DNA from: Clostridia bacterium
Lineage (GTDB): Bacteria; Bacillota; Clostridia; Oscillospirales; Acutalibacteraceae
DNA: 55,589 nucleotides
Direction: 5' to 3'
Assembly (NCBI GenBank): GCA_017396515.1
Contig: JAFQLV010000031.1
Location: forward strand, 1-55,589
Part shown: piece by piece, positions 11,590 through 20,861 of the stretch
How positions within the stretch are numbered: the stretch's first letter is position 1
Layout of the letters: each line of letters starts with the position of its first letter
Program-made: the position numbers and the translations under genes
The notes under the pieces: model-generated
What the model saw: only the letters and a program-made list of their open reading frames with translations
What the model was told of the DNA's origin: nothing
Databases searched by the model: none

Positions 11590-11604
11590 TAATTCTTAAT
11601 CAGC

Positions 11605-11642
11605 ACAACTCCCTGCTCTTTTTGAGTATGGGAGTTGTTTTT
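11605..11642 (+). terminator. Terminator after the topoisomerase operon
   Basis: ACAACTCCC (11605-11613) pairs with GGGAGTTGT (11630-11638), followed by TTTTT. A smaller CTC/GAG pair can form inside the loop. Confidence 0.85.
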
Positions 11643-11670
11643 GCATATAAAAGTTAGTTTTGCACATCAG

Positions 11671-11843: not shown

Positions 11844-13397
11844 TTGGATAAGTCACAAATTCTCACTGTGAGAAGCTTATCGGAATATGCCGTTGAAAAG
11901 TACGGCGAGAAGGATTTCTGCCGATTTATAAGAGACGGTGAAATCTGCGTAAAAAGCTACAGCAGATTTCACGAGGATGCCCTGAGCATCTGCCGATACA
12001 TACGCTCTAAGAGCAAGGAAAAAATGAATATCGGCTTTATCGGCAAAACAAGCTATGAATATATCGCCTGCCTTACAGGTATGATTTTCAGCGGTAACAC
12101 AGTAGTGCCCTTTGCACCGGATATCACTGTTGAGGAAGCAATAGAGCTTTTTGACAATGCTGATATCGAGATGCTTTTCTGCGAAGAGGAATTTACCGAA
12201 AAGGCACATATGATAAAAAGACACTTCGGCGGTCTGAGAGATATTATATCTCTTGGCGATTGGCAGTGGTTTGAGAATAAGTATAAGGAGTTTTCAGGTG
12301 AATCTGCCTATGCTTCACTTTCAGATATAGAGGTTGAGCCTGACAGATGTGCATTGATTATTTATACCTCAGGCACAACAGGTAAGAGAAAGGGTGTAAT
12401 GCTTTCGCAGAATAACCTTGCATCCAACTCAACCTATGATGCTTATGCTCTTGAAAGTGACGATGTTAGCTTTTCAATTCTTCCCATGCACCATGTTTTC
12501 TGCTATGCATGTGACGTGCTCAAAACTCTTTATGACGGCGGTACCCTCTGCCTTAACGGCGAGCTGCAGTATCTTTATAAGCATATGCTTATGTTCCGGC
12601 CCACAATTATGCGAATAGTGCCTGCAATCTGCAAGTCTATTCTCACAAAGATAAAGGTTACCGAAAGACAGAATCCTTCTCTTTCAAAAAGAGAAGCTGC
12701 CGAAAAGGTTGTCGGTAAGAATTTCAGACGAATGATTGCCGGAAGTGCTTTCCTCAGCGGTGCAATAATTGACGAATTTGAGCAGTACGGCATCACAGCA
12801 AGACAGGGCTACGGCATGAGCGAATGCAGCCCCAGAATCACAACCTCAGACTTTTCAGATAAACTCAAATACTCCAACGGCAGACTCACCGGTGTTGATG
12901 AAGTGAGAAGTGTTGACGGAGAAATTCAGGTCAAGGGCCCCAGTGTTATGCTCGGCTACTATAAAATGCCTGAAGAAACAAAAGCTGCTTTCACCGAAGA
13001 CGGTTGGCTTCATACAGGTGACTTAGGTTATGTTGAAGATGACCACATCTTCCTTGTGGGCAGAAAGAAAAATTTGATTATTCTCTCTAACGGCGAAAAC
13101 ATTTCACCTGAAGAAATTGAAAACCGCTTCGCCGATGAGGGTATAATAAAGGAAATCGTCGTTTTAGCAGAAAACGACAAGCTTGTTGCTGAGATTTTCC
13201 CTGATGAAGTGCTTGCTGACAACCTCGGCATCACAGATATTGAAGGTGTAATTTCCGCTGTTATTGACAAAGTTAATATTGACTCGGCGTCTGACAGACA
13301 GATTTTCTCCTTCAGACTTCGTGAAAAGCCCTTCCCGAGAACCTCAACAGGCAAGATAAAGAGAACCGAATTTTATTTTAAGGGTAACGAAAACTAA
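11844..13397 (+). CDS. AMP-forming acyl-CoA/acyl-ACP ligase
   Basis: This member of the ANL adenylating family activates a carboxylic acid as acyl-AMP and passes it to a thiol. Seen motifs are the P-loop YTSGTTGKRKGV (174-185), YGMSECSPR, HTGDLGY with the ribose-binding Asp, the hinge GRKKNLII, and the C-terminal catalytic lysine K504 in TSTGKIKR. The length of 517 residues fits a free-standing ligase. The start is TTG, supported by AAGGAAGTG 7-8 bases upstream. A condensation-domain gene and a carrier protein gene follow, so the natural acceptor is probably that carrier rather than CoA. The substrate cannot be read from sequence; a fatty or other carboxylic acid is as likely as an amino acid. 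Confidence 0.88.
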   Translation: MDKSQILTVRSLSEYAVEKYGEKDFCRFIRDGEICVKSYSRFHEDALSICRYIRSKSKEKMNIGFIGKTSYEYIACLTGMIFSGNTVVPFAPDITVEEAIELFDNADIEMLFCEEEFTEKAHMIKRHFGGLRDIISLGDWQWFENKYKEFSGESAYASLSDIEVEPDRCALIIYTSGTTGKRKGVMLSQNNLASNSTYDAYALESDDVSFSILPMHHVFCYACDVLKTLYDGGTLCLNGELQYLYKHMLMFRPTIMRIVPAICKSILTKIKVTERQNPSLSKREAAEKVVGKNFRRMIAGSAFLSGAIIDEFEQYGITARQGYGMSECSPRITTSDFSDKLKYSNGRLTGVDEVRSVDGEIQVKGPSVMLGYYKMPEETKAAFTEDGWLHTGDLGYVEDDHIFLVGRKKNLIILSNGENISPEEIENRFADEGIIKEIVVLAENDKLVAEIFPDEVLADNLGITDIEGVISAVIDKVNIDSASDRQIFSFRLREKPFPRTSTGKIKRTEFYFKGNEN

Positions 13398-13424
13398 ACG
13401 TTACCGACAGGAGGACCGAAAACT

Positions 13425-14969
13425 ATGGTAGAAAAATTTTTACCCAGCGGTGAAAAAGTTAAGGCTTATCCCATTACAAGCTCACAGAAGATGATGTATC
13501 TTATGTCGCTTAAATACGGATCAGGCTACCCTGTTAACAATATCGGCTACGGCTTTTATTGGAAGGGTGAATTGGACAAGGCAGTGATGAAACAGGCTAT
13601 TCAGGAAGCTATTGAACGCTGTGACACCATGAGGCTTCGCTTTATTATGGGCAAGAAGCTTCAGCTTCTTCAGTATGTATACTACAAGAGTGAGCTTGAG
13701 GTTGAGGAATGGGATTACAGCGATATGACAATCGACGAGGCTGAAGAAAAAATTCTCGCTTTTTCAAGAGAGAGCATTCCTATGTTTAACTGTGAGCTTC
13801 ACAGAATCGCTATTGTTGATTTTGCAGATGGCTATCACGGCCTTTTTATGAGAATTCAGCACCTTGCTATGGACGCTTATTCTCTTAAGGTTTTCGTCAA
13901 CGACATTATTGACATTTATATGCACAGAACAAGGGGAACAGCTTATCCAAAGCCCATGCGCGCTTACATACCTGTGCTTGAAGATGAACTGGCTTACGAA
14001 ACATCTAAGCAGCATTCAGACGACCAGCTTTATTGGTACAATTCACTTGCGCTTTCAACTGAGCCTATTTTCACAGACTTTATGCTTGATAACAGACTCA
14101 AGCAGCAGCAGGTCAAGTACCCCGACAGACGCTTTGCCGACATTCACTCAGGCTTGCCTGATGCTTCAGGTGTCAAATTCAGCATCAGCGCTGAAGACAG
14201 CAAGAAAATCATTGATATGTGCGAAAAGAACAATATTTCCGTTTTTGCATATCTCTCAATGGGTGTGCGTACTGCTCTTTCCTGCTTCAACGATAACCAG
14301 GAGGATGTTTCCTTCAAGATGATTATCAACAGACGCGGTACCATTGCTGAAAAGAAATCGGGCGGTATCCGCATTAACTTCCTTCCAATGAGAAGTATCG
14401 TAAAGCCCACAGAAACCTTTATCCATGCGGTCAGAGGCATTTCTGAGGTTCAGAACGAAATGTATCAGCATTCAAGACTTGCTTTCCTTGAAACTCTTCA
14501 CGAAAGACACAAGTCAATGTCAAAGGATGCTAAGTTTGACTCTACATATGACAGCTTCGGTCTTTCATATCAGCCCTTGATGAAGATGAAGGCAATTGAT
14601 GAGGAAATGGAAAAGACAGCACGCACTATCTGGTACAACAACGGTGCTATCATGATCCCTCTTTATGTTACTGTTGTTCACAGACAGAATGACGGCGGCT
14701 TTGATTTCATCTGCGAATACAGAACAGAGCAGCAGGCTGAATATGACCTTAAGGTGCTTTGCTCTAAAATTGAAAAAGCTATGGTTCTCGGTGCTGAGAA
14801 CCCTGAAATAACAGTACAGGAAGTACTTGATAAAATTGCATTAACTGACGAAGAAAGGAACGGTAAACCCCAATGCAAACACTCGAAAAGCTTATTGACA
14901 TCCTTGGAAACTACGTGGAAGCTGACGAAATCAAGAATGAAGACAATTTTAAGTCTGATCTCGGCCTGA
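13425..14969 (+). CDS. Stand-alone condensation-domain acyltransferase-like protein
   Basis: This protein (514 residues) resembles the chloramphenicol-acetyltransferase-like fold of NRPS condensation domains and related acyltransferases. The first core motif is like YPITSSQKMMYL (15-26). The catalytic HHxxxDG motif reads QHLAMDA (145-151), keeping the catalytic second His (H146) and the structural Asp (D150) but changing the first His to Gln and Gly to Ala. It sits between an acyl-AMP ligase and a carrier protein, so it probably transfers the carrier-bound acyl group to an unknown acceptor. The last 97 bases overlap the carrier gene in another frame, so its final 32 residues may not be ancestral. 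No A domain, thioesterase or transporter is adjacent. Confidence 0.8.
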   Translation: MVEKFLPSGEKVKAYPITSSQKMMYLMSLKYGSGYPVNNIGYGFYWKGELDKAVMKQAIQEAIERCDTMRLRFIMGKKLQLLQYVYYKSELEVEEWDYSDMTIDEAEEKILAFSRESIPMFNCELHRIAIVDFADGYHGLFMRIQHLAMDAYSLKVFVNDIIDIYMHRTRGTAYPKPMRAYIPVLEDELAYETSKQHSDDQLYWYNSLALSTEPIFTDFMLDNRLKQQQVKYPDRRFADIHSGLPDASGVKFSISAEDSKKIIDMCEKNNISVFAYLSMGVRTALSCFNDNQEDVSFKMIINRRGTIAEKKSGGIRINFLPMRSIVKPTETFIHAVRGISEVQNEMYQHSRLAFLETLHERHKSMSKDAKFDSTYDSFGLSYQPLMKMKAIDEEMEKTARTIWYNNGAIMIPLYVTVVHRQNDGGFDFICEYRTEQQAEYDLKVLCSKIEKAMVLGAENPEITVQEVLDKIALTDEERNGKPQCKHSKSLLTSLETTWKLTKSRMKTILSLISA

Positions 14970-15100
14970 GTTCATTTGACACGGTGTGTATGATCAGCGA
15001 TATCAAATCTACCCTCGGTGTTGAGCTTGTTGCAGCAGATTTTGTTAAGCACAAGACAGTCGGTGCCATGGCAGATTATATTGCATCACTTACAGCATAA
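14873..15100 (+). CDS. Acyl carrier protein
   Basis: This 75-residue, mostly acidic protein has the carrier signature SDLGLSSFDTV, where S34 is the expected 4'-phosphopantetheine site. Predicted helices flank it as in the ACP four-helix fold. It is not next to fatty acid synthase genes but ends the ligase/condensation cassette, so it is probably a dedicated carrier. The ATG lies inside the preceding gene. AAAGGA at 14854-14859 is 13 bases upstream, a long spacing. A TAA in this frame at 14864-14866 sets the upstream limit. A terminator follows at once. Confidence 0.9.
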   Translation: MQTLEKLIDILGNYVEADEIKNEDNFKSDLGLSSFDTVCMISDIKSTLGVELVAADFVKHKTVGAMADYIASLTA

Positions 15101-15113
15101 CAGGATTAAATTT

Positions 15114-15155
15114 AAAAGGACAGTTGCCTCAATTGGCAGCTGTCCCTTTTATTTT
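15114..15155. terminator. Bidirectional terminator between the carrier gene and murC
   Basis: AAAAGGACAGTTGCC (15114-15128) pairs with GGCAGCTGTCCCTTTT (15135-15150) across one bulge and one wobble. A-runs and T-runs lie on the two sides, so it can stop both the plus-strand cassette and minus-strand murC. Confidence 0.82.
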
Positions 15156-15169
15156 GTCAATTGTGCAGG

Positions 15170-18272: not shown

Positions 18273-19637
18273 TTACATATTACTGAAAATTTCTTTTATT
18301 TCCGCAGCTCTGCCGCAGGTCATTTTGCCCTCGGGACAAGCACCGTGAACATAGCAGCTGGGGCCGTAAAGCGAGAAAAGATCGGGTGAAATCTTGCGAA
18401 GCTTTTTAAGAAAATCATTTGCAAATGCCTGAATTTCCCACTGTGCTCTTGTGCAGCAGCGCAGACGGAAGAAAAGAAGCATTTCTCTTGCATTCATTGT
18501 TGTCACTATATCAAGGGTGTTGCCGCTGAGCACGCAGTAAATAAGAACATTATCCTCATAGCCCTTTGACTTGAGCTCGCTATAAAGAGAGAGCATGTCA
18601 CTGAAGGCTTCCTTATAAATTGCAAGGGCTTCGCTGTCTGCTTTAACTGTGTCAGGGATAACATAGGAAGCTCTGTCGGCTCTGATGAGGTTGGGTATGC
18701 ATATGCTCTGCATTCTGTGTCTTGCAAAGTGAGTAAGACATGCAAGTGAAACCTTGTTGAATTTTGCAGTGCAGGTATAGCTTTCCAAGGCTCTCGGTCT
18801 TGATGAAGCAGTGAGCTTTTTAAGTATAGTCTTTACATTTTCCTTATTTTCGATAATTCGGTTTGCGGCAGCAGGGGAGTAGCCTGCCTCGAAAAGTGCA
18901 CTCAAAGCTACATTGCTTTCACCGTCGGGAGTATAGGCTAAAATTTCACAAAGCTCCTGAGAAGATTTTTCTTCGTCATAGCTGAATCCGTAGTCAGGCT
19001 CGTCGTTATATTTCTGACCCTTAAGCTCAAAATCAATGAAAAGACCGGGAGCGATTTCCCTGCACTGCTCAAGAAGCGACAGGCCGATTTCATAGATTTC
19101 CTTAATTTTGCTGCCTCTGCCGTAAATCATTGCATTGAGCACATTAATAAGCTCTCTGCCGCCCAGGGAGCAGAAAAAGTTTGAATAGAAGCAGTAGGGA
19201 AGCACAAAGCGTGCATCCTCCTTGGGTATTCCCATTTCGGTAAGTGATGAATATGCTGCGAAAAGCCTGTCAGCCACGGCAGTGTACCTTGCTTTGTCTT
19301 CGTCACACTTAAATTCGGGCACAAGATATCCGCAGTCTGAAAAGTCAACATATCGTCTTGACTTAACGGTGAAGGAAGCGAGTCTGAATTCAATCATAAA
19401 CTGCTCAACAACAACGCTGACATTTTCAAAGGCAAGGTTAAAGAAAATGTGCTCAATTGTTGAAGTGTGGCCTGATTTAGTCACCTTGCCGATAAGCTTG
19501 GTGTTTTTCTCTTCGTCGTGGCTTCTTTCAAAAATTTCGAGTGCGGTTCCGCTTTGGGTTGAAATTCTGCCTGAAGCGGCACAAACCTCCTGACCGACAT
19601 TTGAACAGCCTATAACAAAAGCTCCATATTTATTCAT
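18273..19637 (-). CDS. thyX: Tandem-domain FAD-dependent thymidylate synthase (ThyX)
   Basis: ThyX makes dTMP from dUMP using methylene-THF, FAD and NADPH. At 454 residues this is about twice the usual length (about 220-250) and reads as two ThyX-like halves. The first half has TSTIEH (58-63) and the motif EFR-x7-SRRY (83-96), where RHR has become EFR. The second half has RHR-x7-N (306-316), where the Ser has become Asn, and keeps NARE (382-385), RLR and RAQWEI (397-402). The tail CPEGKMTCG is typical of clostridial ThyX. The ATG at 19637 has GGGAGAG upstream and starts the conserved part. It lies divergent from the cupin-tmk operon, so the next enzyme in dTTP synthesis is adjacent. Confidence 0.9.
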   Translation of the reverse strand: MNKYGAFVIGCSNVGQEVCAASGRISTQSGTALEIFERSHDEEKNTKLIGKVTKSGHTSTIEHIFFNLAFENVSVVVEQFMIEFRLASFTVKSRRYVDFSDCGYLVPEFKCDEDKARYTAVADRLFAAYSSLTEMGIPKEDARFVLPYCFYSNFFCSLGGRELINVLNAMIYGRGSKIKEIYEIGLSLLEQCREIAPGLFIDFELKGQKYNDEPDYGFSYDEEKSSQELCEILAYTPDGESNVALSALFEAGYSPAAANRIIENKENVKTILKKLTASSRPRALESYTCTAKFNKVSLACLTHFARHRMQSICIPNLIRADRASYVIPDTVKADSEALAIYKEAFSDMLSLYSELKSKGYEDNVLIYCVLSGNTLDIVTTMNAREMLLFFRLRCCTRAQWEIQAFANDFLKKLRKISPDLFSLYGPSCYVHGACPEGKMTCGRAAEIKEIFSNM

Positions 19638-19670
19638 AATAGTATCTCTCCCTATAATTTCTTCTGCTAT

Positions 19671-19700
19671 ATTGTAATATAAATCACTGTCATTTGTCAA
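19671..19700 (-). promoter_or_regulatory. sigmaA-type promoter for thyX
   Basis: On the minus strand TTGACA (19700-19695) and TACAAT (19676-19671) are separated by 18 bases. The ThyX start follows about 34 bases downstream. Confidence 0.75.
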
Positions 19701-19768
19701 ATAAAACTTTTTCGCGCGGCAAACTTCCAAATATTACTAAAATGTAAGAACTTTTTAAGAAAAAAACA

Positions 19769-19824: not shown

Positions 19825-20178
19825 ATGGCAATGATTAAAAGAAACAGCGAAATGAAGGTAAGTCTCAGAGAAAATATGCGCGGCGGTGACGGTACTGTTA
19901 AAATCACCGATATACTTGACGCAGGCGAATATAAAGGCAAAAGCCGCCTTTTAGGTGTCATAACTCTTGAAAGCGGCTGCTCAATAGGTGCCCATGTTCA
20001 TGAAAATGAAGAAGAGGTTTTTTATATCATCGAGGGTACCGCCACATATAATGACAACGGCAAGCAAGAAACTCTCTATGCAGGCGACAGCTGTGTGTGT
20101 CTCGGCGGTCAGGAGCATTCAATTGCAAATAAAACAGACGAGACGCTCAGGCTCTTTGCTGTTATTATGACTTATTGA
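19825..20178 (+). CDS. Small single-domain cupin protein
   Basis: This 117-residue protein has the cupin_2 fold. Metal-ligand candidates are H57, H59 and E63 in AHVHENEEE, followed by a FYIIEGTA strand, and H98 in the second cupin motif GQEHSI. Such proteins bind a metal and may be isomerases, dioxygenases or sensors; no specific substrate can be inferred. The ATG at 19825 is close to AGGGG (4 bases); an in-frame ATG at 19831 has better spacing (10 bases), so the first two residues are uncertain. It leads an operon that runs into tmk 8 bases later. Confidence 0.85.
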   Translation: MAMIKRNSEMKVSLRENMRGGDGTVKITDILDAGEYKGKSRLLGVITLESGCSIGAHVHENEEEVFYIIEGTATYNDNGKQETLYAGDSCVCLGGQEHSIANKTDETLRLFAVIMTY

Positions 20179-20186
20179 GGTGCTTT

Positions 20187-20861
20187 ATGGGCAGAATGAT
20201 AGTTATTGACGGCCTTGACGGAAGCGGCAAGGCAACTCAGGCAGAGCTGCTGAAAAACTACCTCAGCTCAAGAGGCTGCAGCACATATACTCTTGACCTG
20301 CCTTTTTATTCAGATGAGTCAAGCACTCTCGTAAAAATGTATCTCAGCGGTGAGCTTGGTGAAAATCCCTCAGATGTCAATGCCTATGCTGCTTCAACCT
20401 TTTATGCGGCAGACAGATATGCAAGCTATAAAAAACATTGGCAAAGGGAATATGAAAGCGACAAAATTGTTGTTGCCAACAGATATACAACCTCAAACGC
20501 CTGTCATCAGATGACAAAGCTCCCGCAGGAGCAATGGGACGAATATCTCTCATGGCTTTTTGAGTTTGAATACGGCAGGTTAGGAATACCTGAGCCTGAC
20601 TGTGTGATTTTTCTTGATATGCCTGTTGAAATTTCACAGAAGCTGCTGTTAAAACGCTATCAGGGTGACGAAAATAAAAAAGATGTGCATGAAAGAGATG
20701 TCCGATATCTGCTTTCTTGTCACAAGGCTGCAGTGTACGCTGCCGAAAAATTAGGCTGGCACAGAGTTGTCTGTGGCAGAGACGGTGAACCTCTGAGCGT
20801 CGATGAGATTTCCGCTGAGGTTTGCCGCATAGCAGAAAGGGAAATTTTAGGCAATGACTGA
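20187..20861 (+). CDS. tmk: Thymidylate kinase
   Basis: Tmk phosphorylates dTMP to dTDP, directly after the ThyX step. The P-loop GLDGSGKAT lies at residues 9-17 and the DRY motif at 76-78 (ADRYAS). A further ANRYTTSNA segment binds the nucleotide, and the LID region (around KRYQGDENKK) is basic. The length of 224 residues is slightly above the usual 205-215. The ATG at 20187 is chosen for the GAGGTG site at 20177-20182 that overlaps the cupin stop. Its last 8 bases overlap the next gene. Confidence 0.92.
   Translation: MGRMIVIDGLDGSGKATQAELLKNYLSSRGCSTYTLDLPFYSDESSTLVKMYLSGELGENPSDVNAYAASTFYAADRYASYKKHWQREYESDKIVVANRYTTSNACHQMTKLPQEQWDEYLSWLFEFEYGRLGIPEPDCVIFLDMPVEISQKLLLKRYQGDENKKDVHERDVRYLLSCHKAAVYAAEKLGWHRVVCGRDGEPLSVDEISAEVCRIAEREILGND

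Follow-up and report, generated by a model that had tools for sequence, protein, structure and literature searches.

We analysed a 55,589-nt stretch of DNA (hereafter the window), contig JAFQLV010000031.1 of the Clostridia bacterium assembly GCA_017396515.1, which is contig 2 in a draft genome of 1.88 Mb (72% complete). The window harbors a cassette of three genes, all transcribed in one direction, that encode an AMP-forming acyl ligase, a free-standing condensation protein and an acyl carrier protein (ACP) as separate polypeptides, not as one multi-domain modular nonribosomal peptide synthetase (NRPS) protein. The analysis suggests, with good confidence, that this cassette is related to those producing fatty acid amides (FAAs), and that the last 31 codons of its condensation gene, located inside the carrier gene, probably encode a C-terminal tail maintained by selection.

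The ligase (11844..13397, forward strand, 517 amino acids, TTG start) matches the Pfam families AMP-binding (163.9 bits) and AMP-binding_C_3 (31.7 bits), the condensation protein (13425..14969, forward strand, 514 amino acids) matches Condensation over residues 13-466 (140.9 bits) and the carrier (14873..15100, forward strand, 75 amino acids) matches PP-binding (39.9 bits), giving the gene order ligase-condensation-carrier (A-C-T). A previous examination of the window by a model restricted to the nucleotide sequence and its open reading frames (ORFs), hereafter the sequence-only reading, had proposed these three genes as one unit bounded by terminators; Pfam confirms each of the three, and strong T-tailed hairpins were found on both sides. 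The first terminator-like hairpin (11603..11644, forward strand, with a T-rich tail) lies between an upstream gyrase/topoisomerase-type gene and the cassette, and the second (15118..15145, forward strand, also with a T-rich tail) follows the carrier gene. Their computed folds reach -22 kcal/mol (z -5.66, positions 11600-11648) and -23.3 kcal/mol (z -6.84, positions 15112-15158), with none of 200 shuffled sequences as stable in either case. As also proposed in that reading, these parts would form a minimal unit able to load an acid on the carrier and to pass it to one acceptor.

The condensation protein consists of a catalytic domain extending to approximately residue 475, a linker and a C-terminal tail (residues 484-514). 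The motif QHLAMDA, already highlighted by the sequence-only reading for its preserved catalytic histidine, occupies residues 145-151, with both His146 and Asp150 retained. An AlphaFold model of the protein was obtained with a predicted local distance difference test score (pLDDT) of 88.6 and a predicted template modeling score of 0.86; in its C-terminal part, the linker is modeled at a pLDDT of ~62 and is followed by a predicted helix at residues 490-513 (pLDDT 73-77). In the carrier, Ser34 aligns with the serine of the DSL motif of known ACPs, is invariant in the 10 ACPs aligned and is the predicted phosphopantetheine site.

The unusual part of the cassette, not mentioned in the sequence-only reading, is the overlap of the condensation and carrier reading frames over 97 nt (14873..14969, forward strand), a stretch that covers carrier codons 1-32 and the first base of codon 33. 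Read in the other frame, this segment provides the last 31 condensation codons plus the stop codon, a TGA that spans the carrier codons for Leu32-Ser33 and thus adjoins Ser34, so that the tail (CKHSKSLL...LISA) is read from carrier codons 1-32. A literature search found no paper on such an overlap, which is not proof that none exists. The tail was present in all 120 homologues listed out of 279 found, of which 114 matched a motif and six were recognized by eye as variants; in L028 and L038 it is shorter by two residues (locus numbers refer to related loci compared below). In several more distant relatives the condensation gene ends at the carrier start or close to it: L048, L051 and L053 display a TAATG in which the condensation stop shares one base with the carrier start, and in L052 and L054-L058 the stop lies at most 17 nt on either side of that start (a downstream Met in L052 and L057). 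Since these relatives stop at or near the carrier start, the tail would most simply have been gained through loss of a stop codon, and the states before (stop touching start) and after (31-residue tail) both survive among relatives.

To evaluate selection on the overlap, we used a main set of 22 related sequences of the tail clade, nearly all from metagenome-assembled genomes (MAGs). Left out were L023 (whose condensation domain duplicates that of L021), L039 (no carrier hit), L040-L044 (altered tails), L034 and L045 (100-nt overlap with an insertion or deletion) and L046 and L047 (88-nt overlap). For each region we computed the same-codon fraction, defined as the proportion of identical codons among pairs sharing a degenerate amino acid. 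This fraction was 0.902 in the overlap (4827 comparisons) versus 0.498 downstream in the carrier gene (5060 comparisons), and 51% in the condensation gene upstream of the overlap. At carrier codons 3-30 it reached 0.922, whereas the maximum over 64 windows of the condensation gene was 0.572. Nine relatives without the long overlap showed no excess, with 0.466 at the carrier codons corresponding to the overlap versus 0.477 downstream. Third-position entropy likewise fell to 0.366 in the overlap versus 1.386 downstream and, by carrier codon position, the overlap entropies were 0.45, 0.41 and 0.37; that the third is the lowest is expected if those bases serve as second bases of condensation codons. 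Read in the condensation frame, the 65 distinct changes observed in the overlap were more conservative than randomly drawn changes of matching position and type (P 0.026), while 147 changes in a mock frame downstream were not (P 0.56). An independent synonymous resampling, which ignores shared descent, was not used as evidence. Altogether, the overlap is probably dual-coding and its tail kept by selection, a case that we regard as good but not final.

The same conservation could arise if the overlap were kept for a nucleotide-level signal, such as an RNA structure, the translation start or an internal control site, the tail being a passive read-out. A ribosome-binding-site-like stretch for the carrier, recognized by eye inside the condensation gene, and an entropy that stays low throughout the overlap, whichever codon position is considered, both speak for such a signal. 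However, the nine relatives lacking the long overlap are not conserved at the same codons, the changes are conservative in the condensation frame and not in the mock frame, and the most conserved position is the third, i.e. the second base of condensation codons. RNA structure as the cause of conservation was examined and rejected: the region has a weak consensus fold (161 columns, -4.92 kcal/mol), in which only 2 of 20 pairs show changes on both sides. We thus consider a purely nucleotide-level explanation rather unlikely.

Several observations nevertheless weigh against a selected tail. The tail is altered in L040-L044, and reduced to about half its length in L041, and is therefore not indispensable everywhere; in these five loci the same-codon excess is weak (0.826 in the overlap, compared with 0.716 downstream and, within the condensation gene, 0.712). 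The P value of 0.026 is modest and breaks down by carrier codon position into 0.42, 0.021 and 0.17, and the selection tests depend on 22 related sequences nearly all derived from MAGs. Finally, the amphipathic and positive character of the tail is no greater than what the other frame of the carrier yields by chance. Selection for a membrane-binding amphipathic helix was accordingly discarded as unsupported: when synonymous carrier codons are drawn at random, the resulting tails have a mean hydrophobic moment of 0.53 (sd 0.10) and a mean net charge of 6.2, and the 22 real tails range from 0.41 to 0.58 and from 4 to 7, respectively. As charge and amphipathicity are at chance level, we claim no membrane anchor, and no docking role is shown by these properties.

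The sequence-only reading had recommended searching databases with the condensation protein and tabulating gene neighborhoods. A search of solved structures with its sequence identified OaaC (PDB 12KH) as the best solved relative, with 237 bits (E 2.9e-69) over residues 13-469, the second-best solved structure being PvdL with 55.5 bits. PDB 12KH is described as OaaC, from a Coprococcus eutactus cassette whose reported product is oleoyl aminovaleric acid (PMC13142362). A cassette of the same kind with a known product, a finding that the sequence-only reading had itself named as refuting its proposal, thus exists in gut Clostridia, which contradicts the earlier suggestion of an undescribed system.

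We reconstructed a tree of 76 rows, comprising 68 free-standing condensation proteins and eight modular NRPS-type domains, with a midpoint root. The modular controls consisted of EntF, five annotated plasmid proteins and two unannotated plasmid stretches (L086 and L090); the plasmid controls were hand-chosen from 25 rows listed of 44 records, and domains with short matches were cut at a fixed length. A branch with 100/100 support separates the 68 free-standing proteins, including the window protein, OaaC and its relatives and a further protein encoded on contig 70 of the same genome, from the eight modular domains. At 33 positions, a residue is conserved in 90% or more of the free-standing proteins but in no more than 25% of the modular domains, and the window protein matches all 33; with only eight modular rows, this signature is a sketch and not a census. 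The histidine and aspartate of the motif are retained in 68/68 free-standing proteins. The residue following the motif aspartate in the window protein is alanine; in the published set, serine or alanine is reported as commonest at this position, alanine ranking second at 36% (PMC13142362). The model, for its part, bears out the CAT-like fold on which the sequence-only reading had made its proposal depend: a fold search of the PDB retrieved 5dua (TM-scores 0.71/0.81), and the 50 matches listed of 234 (E 0.001) were all condensation-type or contained such a domain, two being the related X-domain.

Other results temper this assignment. The clade assignment derives from our own 76-row tree, the published tree comprising 127 FAA sequences; for the modular rows, the tree program issued warnings about long branches and dissimilar composition, and the branch of the contig-70 condensation protein is long as well. 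With the OaaC cluster (P0121), the window protein shares only 31% identity (141/459 aligned positions). The first motif residue is glutamine in the window protein, and the close homologues listed carry glutamine in 49/120 and histidine in 71/120 cases; this residue is given as aspartate or histidine in the published description (PMC13142362). OaaC was absent among the 50 fold matches listed from a library extending up to 8 April 2026. Lastly, neither the acyl chain nor the amine can be read from sequence. As the condensation protein groups with OaaC, the product is nonetheless likely to be a fatty acid amide.

In vitro, OaaC is reported to convert an ACP-bound fatty acid and a free amine into a fatty acid amide, with no product from oleoyl-CoA, and its homodimer is destabilized by the holo- or acyl-carrier in favor of an enzyme-carrier complex (PMC13142362). 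In the reaction proposed for the window, phosphopantetheine would be attached to Ser34 of the carrier, probably by an Sfp-type enzyme whose gene lies outside the window. The predicted role of the ligase is to activate a fatty acid for loading onto the carrier: it would first form acyl-AMP and then acyl-carrier. The carrier would then dock on the condensation protein, where His146 would help a small free amine to attack the thioester, and the N-acyl amide would leave. The sub-clade to which the window belongs may have lost a stop codon once touching the carrier start, thereby gaining a new C-terminal helix of the enzyme that is now kept by selection. That the tail aids binding of the carrier or the ligase is a guess that would fit the dimer behavior of OaaC. 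We raise tentatively, as a possibility well short of an even chance, that the enzyme helix overprinted on the helix-I region of the carrier acts as a docking or gating element tying enzyme and carrier genetically.

A single protein matching PF01648 (212 amino acids, 46.6 bits) was found in the genome, outside the window, and by its length and motif we take it to be an Sfp-type phosphopantetheinyl transferase. The absence of other NRPS parts nearby, stated in the sequence-only reading, holds for the window, where inspection by eye (not a family scan) of the ORFs of at least 110 amino acids revealed none. The absence of an exporter is limited to this window, because 7 of 49 related loci have a transporter-like pair upstream. 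As for the ligase, its best solved structure scores 106 bits, and it aligns with the ligases of two loci of order C-T-A (L062 and L064) at 361 and 363 bits.

The sequence-only reading had likened the logic of the cassette to D-alanylation and proposed a small biosynthetic or envelope-modifying system; in the latter case the acceptor would be a lipid head group or a wall polymer. A free-standing ligase and carrier without a release domain would be compatible with such a role, as would the acceptor not being readable from sequence and the ABC-transporter-like pair directly upstream in the seven loci just mentioned. However, the carrier falls below the cut-offs of two DltC models (20 bits versus 68, and 17.7 bits versus 52.35), no DltB/DltD-type partner or membrane acyltransferase was seen by eye in the ORF list of the window, including next to the cassette, and the transferase groups with OaaC, a user of free amines. 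The envelope proposal is therefore improbable, and we do not retain it. Although condensation domains usually serve NRPSs, and some genomes of the genus have condensation matches within open frames as long as 4246 codons, it is very improbable that the three proteins provide an in-trans starter unit to a modular NRPS encoded at another site of the genome, since both condensation matches in this genome (2/2) are free-standing and no modular NRPS was found, in an assembly that is 72% complete.

Gene order was compared across 49 related loci, mostly MAGs titled Clostridia or Oscillospiraceae, with counts made by hand. In 41 loci the ligase gene stands immediately before the condensation gene, and in three (L062, L064 and L065) it comes after it, L066 being cut short; L062 and L064, both Clostridium-titled, have the order C-T-A. 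Four loci from one sub-branch (L027, L030, L032 and L039) have no ligase at the locus. The genomes of three of these four were searched, and in each a ligase with 65-73% identity is encoded at another site; this suggests that the three proteins cooperate even when split. An extra AMP-binding ligase-like gene was observed directly upstream in L051, L053, L054, L055 and L058 and downstream in L061 and L063, those of L051 and L061 being confirmed by Pfam; its role might be to activate either a further acid or the acceptor. The ABC-transporter-like pairs lie directly upstream in L018, L019, L021, L023, L035, L037 and L050, and downstream in L032; one gene, from L018, was scanned by Pfam and the others were read from the cluster strings. 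Such a pair is a possible exporter.

At the level of genomes, matches to the condensation protein were obtained in 32/34 genomes of the genus and 28/200 of the family (E 1e-30), and in 3/295 drawn from the order (E 1e-20). Restricted to proteins with at least 39% identity, these numbers become 19/34 (all at least 41%), 8/200 and 1/295, the last being the genome of the window itself, and some condensation match exists in 34/34 genus genomes. The cassette looks accessory because the flanking genes differ between loci, although the upstream topoisomerase-type pair is common to the window and to L025, L028, L034, L036 and L038. In 31 of the 49 record titles, the site named is in the gut of a ruminant (goat, sheep, roe deer, water deer, cattle, yak or buffalo). 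The genome of the window carries a second set, on contig 70 (locus L092, 652-4160), with the order condensation-ligase-carrier (C-A-T) and the motif SHLNMDA; apparent amino-acid ABC transporter genes, identified by eye, adjoin it.

Around the cassette, names were assigned by eye: a gyrase/topoisomerase-type gene pair lies upstream, a MurC-like gene downstream on the opposite strand, a 485-amino acid protein resembling a double-length ThyX-type thymidylate synthase on the minus strand at 18273-19730, and a thymidylate-kinase-like gene near it at 20175-20861. Rfam and tRNA scans of the window gave no match, nor did PADLOC run with the ligase and the condensation protein. A promoter scan returned 12 sigma-70-like sites versus 8.3 expected and was uninformative.

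Compared with known systems, the window protein has a fold in common with the starter condensation domains RzmA and CDA C1. Starter condensation domains of lipopeptide NRPSs use an acyl donor. Unlike the free-standing window protein, RzmA and CDA C1 reside in modular proteins and their acceptor is carrier-bound. The contig-70 set comprises the same three kinds of free-standing proteins, but its condensation protein is 26% identical to that of the window and its genes do not overlap. The CTA operon groups the same three genes, in the order C-T-A and not A-C-T, and its survey reportedly follows Chang et al. 2021. The difference in gene order from published operons also counts against the fatty acid amide assignment of the window cassette. 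This operon is known from Lachnospiraceae such as Blautia wexlerae; according to the survey, the carrier gene lies between the condensation and ligase genes in all isolates with homologues, and homologues were found in 36 species, all Lachnospiraceae, at a 70% identity cut-off (PMC13060934). Beside this cut-off, the window protein shows the 31% identity given above to the OaaC cluster, the sole catalogued protein compared. In the genus of the window, a distinct branch that differs in gene order is common.

The closest likeness is to the Oaa system (OaaA, OaaACP and OaaC), which is likewise made of three free-standing proteins and whose condensation protein has a homologous catalytic domain with signature residues in common. 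The two differ in the motif (DHRLMDS in OaaC versus QHLAMDA), in length (465 versus 514 amino acids) and in that the last 31 residues of the window protein are read from the carrier gene. Host receptors, GPR119 among them, are reported targets of FAAs from gut Clostridia (PMC13142362, PMC13060934), giving relevance to relatives of these cassettes. The overlap, for its part, looks like a clean natural case of long same-strand dual coding in bacteria, with a constraint strong enough to be measured. The kind of cassette is thus already known, and what appears new relative to its published form is the gene order and the overprinted tail.

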